From the NCBI GenBank assembly GCA_947169975.1, contig CAMVRT010000002.1, positions 62,001-126,000 of the forward strand: a DNA stretch of 64,000 bases, written 5' to 3'. The position numbers were made by a program, and so were the translations under genes. Below the pieces are notes generated by a model. The model was given only the letters and a program-made list of their open reading frames with translations. It was not told the DNA's origin and searched no databases. This document shows, one piece after another, positions 2,904 to 64,000 of the stretch; positions within the stretch are counted from its first letter, which is position 1, and each line of letters starts with the position of its first letter. This DNA is from an uncultured Oscillospiraceae bacterium (lineage in GTDB: Bacteria; Bacillota; Clostridia; Oscillospirales; Oscillospiraceae).

Positions 2904-2989
2904 AATGTTTGCCTCCTATTATACTTTCAATTTATTATTGTTTGGTTTTCAAATTGGTTCTATCAAAACGCAGCGGTAATTGCGTAATT

Positions 2990-3167
2990 GCCTCGCAGAG
3001 TTTCGCCGCCGCAGCGGCGAAAGAAATCAAATCATTTTTCACCGCGGCGTGTACGTGGTGAAAAATACCTCTCAGCCTGCGCAGTGTGCGAGCGTCTCAC
3101 GCAAGCGAGTGCGCGGAGCGGGCTGCAAGCCCTTTCGTTGAAAATGGCGCAGCTATTTTCAACGAAG
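2990..3167 (+). repeat. Mosaic hairpin repeat, copy 1 (between grpE and dnaK)
   Basis: A dispersed intergenic repeat, oriented here from GCCTCGCAGAG at the left to GGCTGCAAGCC and a terminal hairpin at the right. Three stem-loops are clear: TTTCGCCGC/GCGGCGAAA around a CGCA loop (about 3000-3022), TTTTTCACC/GGTGAAAAA (about 3035-3066), and a 15-bp terminal hairpin at 3134-3166. Related copies lie at 22040-22307 and from 63878 to the window end. The arms differ between copies but remain complementary within each. It occupies most of the grpE-dnaK gap inside the operon and would be transcribed. No encoded protein is plausible. Confidence 0.75.
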
Positions 3168-7868: not shown

Positions 7869-7972
7869 GACAGCGGGATGCGAGGGCGGTACTGCAAGGA
7901 GCTGCGCTCCTTTTCGTCCGGCGGACAACTCCCCGTTCCGCAGGCACTTGAACATACCGCACTCTACTCTGT
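7869..7972 (-). ncRNA. THF (tetrahydrofolate) riboswitch
   Basis: On the minus strand this leader matches the THF aptamer in order: GAGTAGA near the 5' end, TTCAAGTG, GGAACGGGGAGTTGTC, GGACGAA, then the closing strand TACCGC...GCATCCCGCTGT. ACAG/CTGT closes the outer helix and GCGGTA/TACCGC a long-range helix. Known THF riboswitches lie ahead of folT and other folate genes, as here. The expression platform is probably sequestration of the folT ribosome-binding site 70 bases downstream; that part is inference. Confidence 0.87.
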
Positions 7973-7987
7973 ACTGATAACACGATT

Positions 7988-22007: not shown

Positions 22008-22039
22008 CGAAAGAGGAGCGGCGCCGCCGCTCCTCTTTT
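22008..22039 (+). terminator. Terminator, left copy of a 32-bp direct repeat
   Basis: A hairpin GAGGAGCGGCG/CGCCGCTCCTC with a T4 tail, just after the CofE-like gene. The whole 32 bases recur identically at 22308-22339, exactly 300 bases downstream, on the other side of the mosaic repeat. Confidence 0.8.
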
Positions 22040-22307
22040 CAGCTTGTCAAAAAAGCCTCGCAGAGTTCGCGCCGCGCACGGCGCGAAGATATTTAATCGT
22101 ATTTTGCCGCGGCGTTACGTGAGCGCCCAAATCTATGATTTGGCTGCGCGAACTTATGCATGCGAGCGAAGCGAGTCGTAGTACGTGGCAAAATACACCT
22201 CTCAGACTACGAAGTGTGCGAATTGTCCGCCATTGGCGGACAATGAGTGCGCGCAGTAGGCTGCAAGCCTTTTGTCAAAAAACGGCATTGCCGTTTTTTG
22301 ACAGTCT
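22040..22307 (+). repeat. Mosaic hairpin repeat, copy 2
   Basis: A 268-base element between two identical 32-bp terminators. From left to right: TTGTCAAAAAA, GCCTCGCAGAG, a hairpin TTCGCGCCG/CGGCGCGAA around CGCA, a hairpin TATTTTGCC/GGCAAAATA with an insert holding CCAAATC/GATTTGG, then ACCTCTCAG, a hairpin TTGTCCGCC/GGCGGACAA, GGCTGCAAGCC and a terminal hairpin (22273-22303). It shares the order of parts with copy 1, but the arms differ and stay complementary. The 360-base gap holds only this and the terminators; short ORFs across it are not credible. Confidence 0.78.
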
Positions 22308-22339
22308 CGAAAGAGGAGCGGCGCCGCCGCTCCTCTTTT
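22308..22339 (+). terminator. Terminator, right copy of the 32-bp direct repeat
   Basis: Identical to 22008-22039. It lies between the mosaic repeat and the converging lipoprotein gene and could act in either direction, because the hairpin is flanked by AAA on the left and TTTT on the right. Confidence 0.75.
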
Positions 22340-63877: not shown

Positions 63878-64000
63878 TTCAACGAAAATGGCAGGACCAT
63901 TTTCGTTGATCGGGCTTGCAGCCTGCTGCGCGCACAGCTAACGCATAAGTTCGCCCAGCCAAATCAAAGATTTGGGGGCTTACTTATCGCTTGCGTGAGA
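63878..64000 (-). repeat. Mosaic hairpin repeat, copy 3 (runs off the window)
   Basis: Opposite orientation to copies 1 and 2. On the minus strand it ends with GGCTGCAAGCC and a 13-bp terminal hairpin TCAACGAAAATGG/CCATTTTCGTTGA (63879-63909). Before the core it carries the module CCAAATC/GATTTGG...GCGAACTTATGC that copy 2 has elsewhere, and the TCTCACGCAAGCGA segment of copy 1. It begins eight bases after the rpsT terminator. Its far end is not in view. Confidence 0.75.

Follow-up and report, generated by a model that had tools for sequence, protein, structure and literature searches.

Some members of the IS1182 family in ISfinder have long target repeats. In staphylococci, IS1272, which belongs to this family, and TnSha1 insert into hairpins, including confirmed terminators, and the available text of the two reports describes their targets as stem-loops without a sequence consensus, with both orientations of TnSha1 seen at one terminator (PMC5678879, PMC4923244). 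As described there, the stem-loop is deleted or replaced and no duplication is formed (PMC5678879, PMC4923244). Pathway b of a model in the accessible part of one of these reports places the joins at the 5' feet, which leads to duplication of the whole stem-loop (PMC5678879). Among small non-coding repeats, BOX, RUP and SPRITE of Streptococcus pneumoniae have predicted RNA folds and are enriched at gene ends, BOX being modular and SPRITE terminator-like according to the available text (PMC3049150). In the Bacillus cereus group, bcr1 is presented in the available text as a dispersed structured repeat of 147-167 bp, and the title of its original paper speaks of 'mobile element characteristics' (as cited in PMC2267715). 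ERIC, Correia and other bacterial MITEs are folded, non-autonomous and mostly intergenic elements that can alter transcript stability, as far as the accessible portions go (PMC10969869), and REP sequences are given as palindromes of 20-40 bp in PMC3733652.

The family analysed here resembles IS1272 and TnSha1, as described in the available text, in its stem-loop or terminator target and in the transposase family name, IS1182, common to both, but it duplicates the whole hairpin, which fits pathway b, and carries no gene (PMC5678879). Like BOX, RUP and SPRITE it is small, non-coding, folded and found near gene ends; for those repeats, which we compared by description only, the available text reports neither whole-terminator duplication nor compensatory changes (PMC3049150). 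None of ERIC, Correia and the other MITEs is described in the accessible portions of PMC10969869 as duplicating a terminator hairpin, and IS1182 is unmentioned in them. At about 200 bp and with target duplications, the present element also differs from REP sequences. The bcr1 repeat, reportedly with target duplication and covariation, is by the available description a dispersed structured repeat like the present family, but of another taxon. Rfam models of structured RNAs score sequence and fold together, a signal of the same kind; no family of Rfam release 15 matched the element at the curated score in the window or in three loci with copies, and a relaxed threshold gave nothing but sub-threshold matches in those three loci, none of them convincing. 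In addition, we found no description of this family in the literature searched, most subscription journals lying outside the search, in agreement with the original prediction, which knew of no matching named family.

The window, that is, the whole 64,000-nucleotide stretch analysed (G000:C2:62001-126000), comes from a 2.16-Mb genome of an uncultured Oscillospiraceae bacterium, hereafter the source genome. The original prediction described a dispersed hairpin repeat with three cores in fixed order; when both strands were read, copies 1 (2990-3167) and 2 (22040-22307) had the three cores in order and the arms as quoted. The third copy is real, continuing beyond the window as a full copy to about G000:C2:126169 (extended locus L035), but it lies on the minus strand and its left core is GGGCATCGCAGATTT instead of GCCTCGCAGAG, with ACCTCTCAG present. 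The features are as follows.

2987..3131, plus strand: copy 1, folded core (closing stem, P2, P3 and P4; 134.8 bits with covariance model R1)
Copy 1, plus strand: P2 arms TTTCGCCGC/GCGGCGAAA, by sequence reading
Copy 1, plus strand: P3 arms TTTTTCACC/GGTGAAAAA, by sequence reading
3132..3167, plus strand: copy 1, terminal hairpin P5, TTTCGTTGAAAAT..ATTTTCAACGAA
22008..22039, plus strand: copy 2, left target copy, a terminator-like hairpin with a T-run behind the upstream gene
22040..22307, plus strand: copy 2, the whole element (268 bp with its nested insert)
22040..22054, plus strand: copy 2, left terminal inverted repeat, CAGCTTGTCAAAAAA
22060..22063 and 22261..22264, plus strand: copy 2, closing stem P1, 5' side GCAG and 3' side CTGC
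22066..22087, plus strand: copy 2, hairpin P2, TTCGCGCCG-CGCA-CGGCGCGAA
22099..22196, plus strand: copy 2, hairpin P3 (arms 22099-22111 and 22184-22196)
22114..22181, plus strand: copy 2, nested hairpin unit in the P3 loop, TACGTGAGCGCCCAAATCTATGATTTGG...GTCGTAG
22203..22263, plus strand: copy 2, hairpin P4 (about 22207-22258) with flanks
22273..22303, plus strand: copy 2, terminal hairpin P5, TGTCAAAAAACGGCATTGCCGTTTTTTGACA
22294..22307, plus strand: copy 2, right terminal inverted repeat, TTTTTTGACAGTCT
22308..22339, plus strand: copy 2, right target copy, a hairpin, terminator-like by scan
63878..64000, minus strand: copy 3, truncated at the window edge, right part only (P5, GGCTGCAAGCC, and P4 with a nested unit)

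Copy 2 is flanked by a perfect 32-bp direct repeat, itself a hairpin, at 22008-22039 and 22308-22339, so that 22040-22307 is exactly the element; this duplication was absent from the original prediction. Its right terminal repeat forms the 3' arm of P5, and the nested insert splits the conserved apical motif of P3. Copy 1 lies between grpE and dnaK, and neither a terminal repeat nor a target duplication was recognised there. As a separate observation, both ends of copy 2 (22294-22307 and 22040-22054) contain TTGACA facing outward, which could give neighbouring genes a -35 box; no promoter-like site was found inside or beside copy 2. The window also holds a THF riboswitch on the minus strand (7869-7973, 76.1 bits), its one Rfam match at the curated score.

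Within the window alone, matches to the cores with mismatches allowed were within chance (4 against a shuffle mean of 2.3, and 6 against 10.95). Across the whole source genome, there are 28 occurrences of GGCTGCAAGCC and none of its reversed pattern, four of the 28 being unrelated on reading (L039, L050, L058 and L061), and CCTCGCAGAG occurs 17 times against 7 for its control. Copy 2 used as a DNA query gave 87 matches in the source genome, many of them partial. Using R1, a covariance model of the element core built from 39 sequences, we found at least 34 copies in the source genome and 82, of which 66 are nearly full-length, in a relative (G018) that is probably Vescimonas fastidiosa, the genus probably being Vescimonas (Oscillospiraceae). 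The repeat is thus dispersed, as had been claimed, and further copies are abundant. A scan of 90 genomes with the covariance model, which scored no more than 34 candidates in each genome under stricter filters than the G018 search, so that per-genome copy counts are lower bounds, detected copies in 43: 31 of 32 genomes of the same genus, the source genome included, 10 of 23 from other genera of the family, and two of 35 from elsewhere in the order, both of one genus of another family. Between grpE and dnaK, where 27 of 30 loci were measured, a full copy is found in two (the source genome and G007) and a remnant consisting of the start and P2 in a third (G001); the 24 loci without the core comprise 21 short and three longer intergenic regions. 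Two further observations concern distribution. In the genus of another family (G042; L291, L292, L294, L295 and L296), the P1-P3 half is kept and followed by a different P4 region and more hairpins, and five human-faecal phage records match the element (MT836333.1, MT835961.1, MT838656.1, MT839839.1 and MT835783.1).

The element family is mobile. Young copies that we read in several species have the same hairpin on either side. For a systematic comparison of flanks, removal of short, motif-less and duplicate rows reduced 187 model matches to 156, one of which had too little flank, leaving 155. Calling a duplication where the local flank match scored at least 14 and above all 60 shuffles, we recognised one in 68 of the 155 copies and none in the other 87. 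Of the 68 duplicated pieces, 64 are hairpins folding at -11 kcal/mol or better, and most of these consist almost entirely of the hairpin; lengths range over 14-45 bp for all 68 and 19-41 bp for the 64 hairpins. Empty sites are available for two insertions behind the same gene. The hairpin that is double at copy 2 in the source genome is single and element-free in G025, and a near-identical single hairpin occupies the orthologous place in G019. Another hairpin there is single in G022 and double in G024, and the G024 element has the orientation opposite to that of copy 2. By a crude ORF test that over-calls genes, 83 of the 86 copies with enough flank, 70 more having too little, have a gene end on one or both sides, and by the same crude test no insertion orientation bias was detected (left-only 19, right-only 10, p 0.14).

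The hairpin, the T-run and the position suggest that the target is a transcription terminator. That the duplications vary in length and follow the palindrome points to an extruded hairpin at whose feet both strands would be joined. Stem-loop replacement of the IS1272 type does not apply, since the hairpin stands on both sides here and is single at the empty site, and we dropped integration by a Cas1-like enzyme or a reverse transcriptase after seeing IS1182 ends with matching duplications.

The element is short and non-coding and has terminal inverted repeats. Both ends of copy 2, read inward, give TGTCAAAAAA, and young copies of several species have ends similar to its CAGCTTGTCAAAAAA/TTTTTTGACAGTCT. 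As for the transposase that the original prediction asked for, the source genome has one gene of the IS1182 family (NF033551, 396 bits against a cut-off of 270), with one end matching that of the repeat; the ends and target of the repeat are of the IS1182 type. The gene has an intact frame of 470 residues from an inner methionine, with the Pfam domains DDE_Tnp_1_6, DDE_Tnp_1 and DUF772. The element's left end, CAGCTTGTCAAA, lies between this gene and a hairpin, and TCAGCTTGTCAAAGAA is found downstream of the gene, directly adjoining a hairpin. Compared with related IS loci, the left tip of the source genome's IS1182 copy is short by about 8 bp. With this damaged left end (L157, about 2885-2905), the IS, the sole IS1182 copy found in the source genome whose frame is intact, may serve the elements and perhaps not itself. 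The same locus also contains another dispersed hairpin repeat, TGTCATTCCGAGG..GGGAATCCG with GGATTGCC..CTCGCAATGACA, which has variable complementary middles and is found repeatedly in these genomes (L157 2930-3180, L417 and L419).

Related IS loci were collected by scanning named genomes with the source genome's transposase protein; 80 were kept and 41 examined, several from the same genomes. A direct repeat of 14-64 bp surrounds an element of 1.48-1.75 kb in 30 of these 41, the remaining 11 having no direct repeat, and 27 of the 30 repeats are complete hairpins by eye. The ends of the related IS, CAG..TGTC(A/G)AAAAA and its inverse, are like those of the repeat. A weak model match beside the IS in L185 (E 0.0011) was spurious when read.

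The fold of the core consists of a closing stem, P1, and the hairpins P2, P3 and P4; the terminal hairpin P5, which is terminator-like, comes next. Matched changes of both arms are seen in P2, P3 and the upper part of P4, both across species and among the copies of one genome. RNAalifold, applied to 50 copies from 11 genomes, gave 53 pairs, 24 of which have both sides changed. In the 39 core sequences, 97.0% of cells pair, compared to 81.8 +/- 0.6% when shuffled and 29-49% when slid by 1-3 columns; both-sided change affects 27 of 46 pairs, with 233 such cells against 72.9 in the shuffled data. We evaluated covariation with our own R-scape-like implementation (G-test with average-product correction), in which the null re-places the substitutions of each branch and is thus tree-aware, on two alignments fitted to the covariance model, a procedure that favours pairing: A3 with 107 rows and A4 with 66 V. 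fastidiosa rows. At the strict threshold for all pairs, 7 of the 8 pairs passing in A3 and 3 of 3 in A4 belong to the structure. Tested alone, 18 of 44 structure pairs pass in A3 and 11 of 44 in A4; among the remaining column pairs the same cut is passed by 19 of 11131 and 14 of 10687. Changes on both sides of a pair on the same branch numbered 140 (A3) and 43 (A4), where independent sides would give 7.8 and 2.3, and single-side changes numbered 160 and 69. Unpaired columns carry 9.7 substitutions each and paired columns 5.0 in A3, and 3.7 and 1.8 in A4. P1, which is almost invariant, and the lower P4 stem vary too little to receive covariation support. A covariance model and a covariation test of the kind that had been proposed thus gave significant pairs beyond phylogeny.

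A representative core has a folding energy of -73.3 kcal/mol (z -5.4) for the plus strand and -66.4 kcal/mol (z -4.5) for the minus strand. At four A3 positions G.T is the commonest pair on the plus strand, three of them in the lower P4 stem, where there is no covariation support. Sporadic G.T and A.C mismatches number 40 versus 22 (p 0.03) and 36 versus 24 (p 0.16), and this excess of G.T over A.C is weakly suggestive of a folded plus strand.

Smaller units also occur in and around the fold. The hairpin unit TAAGTGAGCGCCCAAATC..GATTTGG..GAACTTATGC, found in the window at 22114-22181 and in L035, L036, L044, L056 and L062, sits in the P3 loop, on the P2 side or in P4, and it is present inside unrelated repeats on contigs C8, C15 and C29 as well. 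An insert, CCCCAAGGG...GCTGG, occupies the P3 loop in copies of G003, G022 and G026 (L137, L143, L144, L145, L146 and L152) and the P2 loop in G007 (L248); one orthologous copy has it in G026 but lacks it in G024 (L145, L154).

The duplicated terminator hairpins, being identical at the start, serve as an internal control for the coordinated change. Twenty-seven of the 64 are still identical, and over 664 stem pairs, counted in equal-length pairs only, there are 30 one-sided and 2 two-sided differences. For the element itself we compared nearest neighbours in V. fastidiosa, counting base pairs, so that one block swap is counted several times, and applying Fisher tests. At an unpaired distance of up to 4% (18 pairs of copies), P2 and P4 together show 16 two-sided and 13 one-sided changes and P1 shows 1 and 9; when the limit is raised to 7% (42 pairs), the counts for P2-P4 are 99 and 45. 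Two-sided changes are absent from the 4 pairs under 2%. Since the terminators change mostly one-sidedly and the element often two-sidedly, coordinated change is a property of the element and not of hairpins generally. The coordinated arm change put forward in the original prediction therefore stands above both the tree-aware null and this control, and a general palindrome-correcting mechanism is rejected, as no such correction is seen in the duplicated terminators. Old-type copies of V. fastidiosa, 26 of 27 of which have no recognised duplication, whether eroded or never present, form 99.5% of P2 pairs (80% if the sides were independent) and 94% of P4 pairs (86%); in the same copies there is no pairing excess in P3 (92.3 versus 92.0%) or P1 (98.1 versus 98.1%).

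We read the coordinated change as selection for the fold together with exchange of hairpin modules between copies. Overall, it is probable that the repeat is a MITE-like, non-autonomous mobile family of about 200 bp that is moved in trans by IS1182, with its fold under selection and its hairpins exchanged. An IS1182-family DDE transposase acting in trans would join both element ends to the two feet of an extruded hairpin, and gap repair would then copy the hairpin, leaving a whole hairpin on each side. Insertion into a terminator in this manner would spare the genes, because a terminator remains on both sides. Selection would act on folding of the plus strand, most likely in RNA form, and the copies would obtain ready-made matched arms by exchanging whole hairpins.

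The identity of the mover is complicated by the distribution of the transposase. The protein of the source genome finds a match in only 5 of the 32 genus genomes and is unmatched in 27, and the family model, run on 21 genus genomes, added broken transposase fragments in G003 and G005. In V. fastidiosa, with its 66 nearly full-length and many recent-looking copies, there is no match to this transposase, and one exact terminal-repeat word, which changed ends would escape, leads to no larger element; it returned copies already known, matches apparently due to chance, and derivatives with internal deletions. The apparent derivatives (L408, L409, L410, L413 and L415) retain the terminal repeat along with portions of the end hairpins. 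A helper may have done its work and then disappeared, or another enzyme may be involved. These data speak for a transposase outside IS1182 that shares the terminal repeats and the target habit by chance. We regard this as improbable, since both the end sequence and the duplication of a whole hairpin match many IS1182 elements, a helper can vanish after a burst, and several of the genomes are incomplete. REP/RAYT palindromes lack target duplications, and a REP/RAYT-like element moved as single-stranded DNA, for which the hairpin-rich and intergenic character of the repeat might be cited, is hardly credible given a length of about 200 bp, terminal inverted repeats, hairpin duplications of 19-41 bp, and ends that match a DDE element.

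The role of selection in the preferred reading can be challenged from two directions. In a neutral mobile element, the arms would keep their complementarity because hairpins are rewritten as units, by template switching inside the palindrome or by copy-to-copy gene conversion, with no selection involved. Several observations favour this account: the 26 typed copies of group a in V. fastidiosa are otherwise similar but combine a small number of alternative P2, P4 and P5 hairpins, with four-gamete combinations in 6, 2 and 3 of the 36 comparisons, by pattern-based hairpin typing that leaves 8 of the 26 copies without a P5 type. At one orthologous place (L308 versus L341, in G009 and G018) the P5 apex has been swapped, and P2-P4 differ there in scattered single bases. 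In the RNAalifold set, P3 shows block changes and almost no one-sided intermediates, and between the grpE-dnaK copies of the source genome and G007 it differs at four adjacent pairs, all compensated. On the other hand, the terminator hairpins of the same copies diverge mostly one-sidedly (30 versus 2), P2 is paired almost perfectly in copies where no duplication was recognised, and group b contains no four-gamete combination (0 of 36, 0 of 6 and 0 of 6), so we consider purely neutral rewriting unlikely, albeit a serious contender. The choice between selection and arm rewriting posed in the original prediction is consequently not an either/or, as pairing selection and, in V. fastidiosa, whole-hairpin exchange both contribute. 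Alternatively, hosts may keep old copies as structured 3' ends or bidirectional terminators through P5 and select for pairing after insertion. The old copies in the source genome have P5 outer arms that differ from copy to copy and are complementary by eye, around a conserved, terminator-like centre of A-tract, stem and T-tract, a pattern that would fit use as terminators. An apparent gene end lies beside most copies (83 of 86 by the crude, over-calling ORF test), and the orthologous pair L036:8215 / L125 has paired changes in P5. We nevertheless find host-level use about equally unlikely, because positions are often unshared between species, 2 of 27 measured loci having the entire grpE-dnaK copy and one more a remnant, and because the core P1-P4, which a terminator would not need, is also conserved.

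Taken together with dozens of copies per genome in many species, these features provide a data set in which selection, module exchange and neutral decay are separable, and in which the duplicated terminator hairpins act as a built-in control. We tentatively entertain, while rating it below an even chance, a further step: that the core is a functional structured RNA spread by an IS1182-type system to dozens of gene ends per genome, its fold being kept after insertion. If so, the hosts or the element would use the fold at the 3' ends of transcripts, and insertion that duplicates the terminator would make such wholesale spread harmless.
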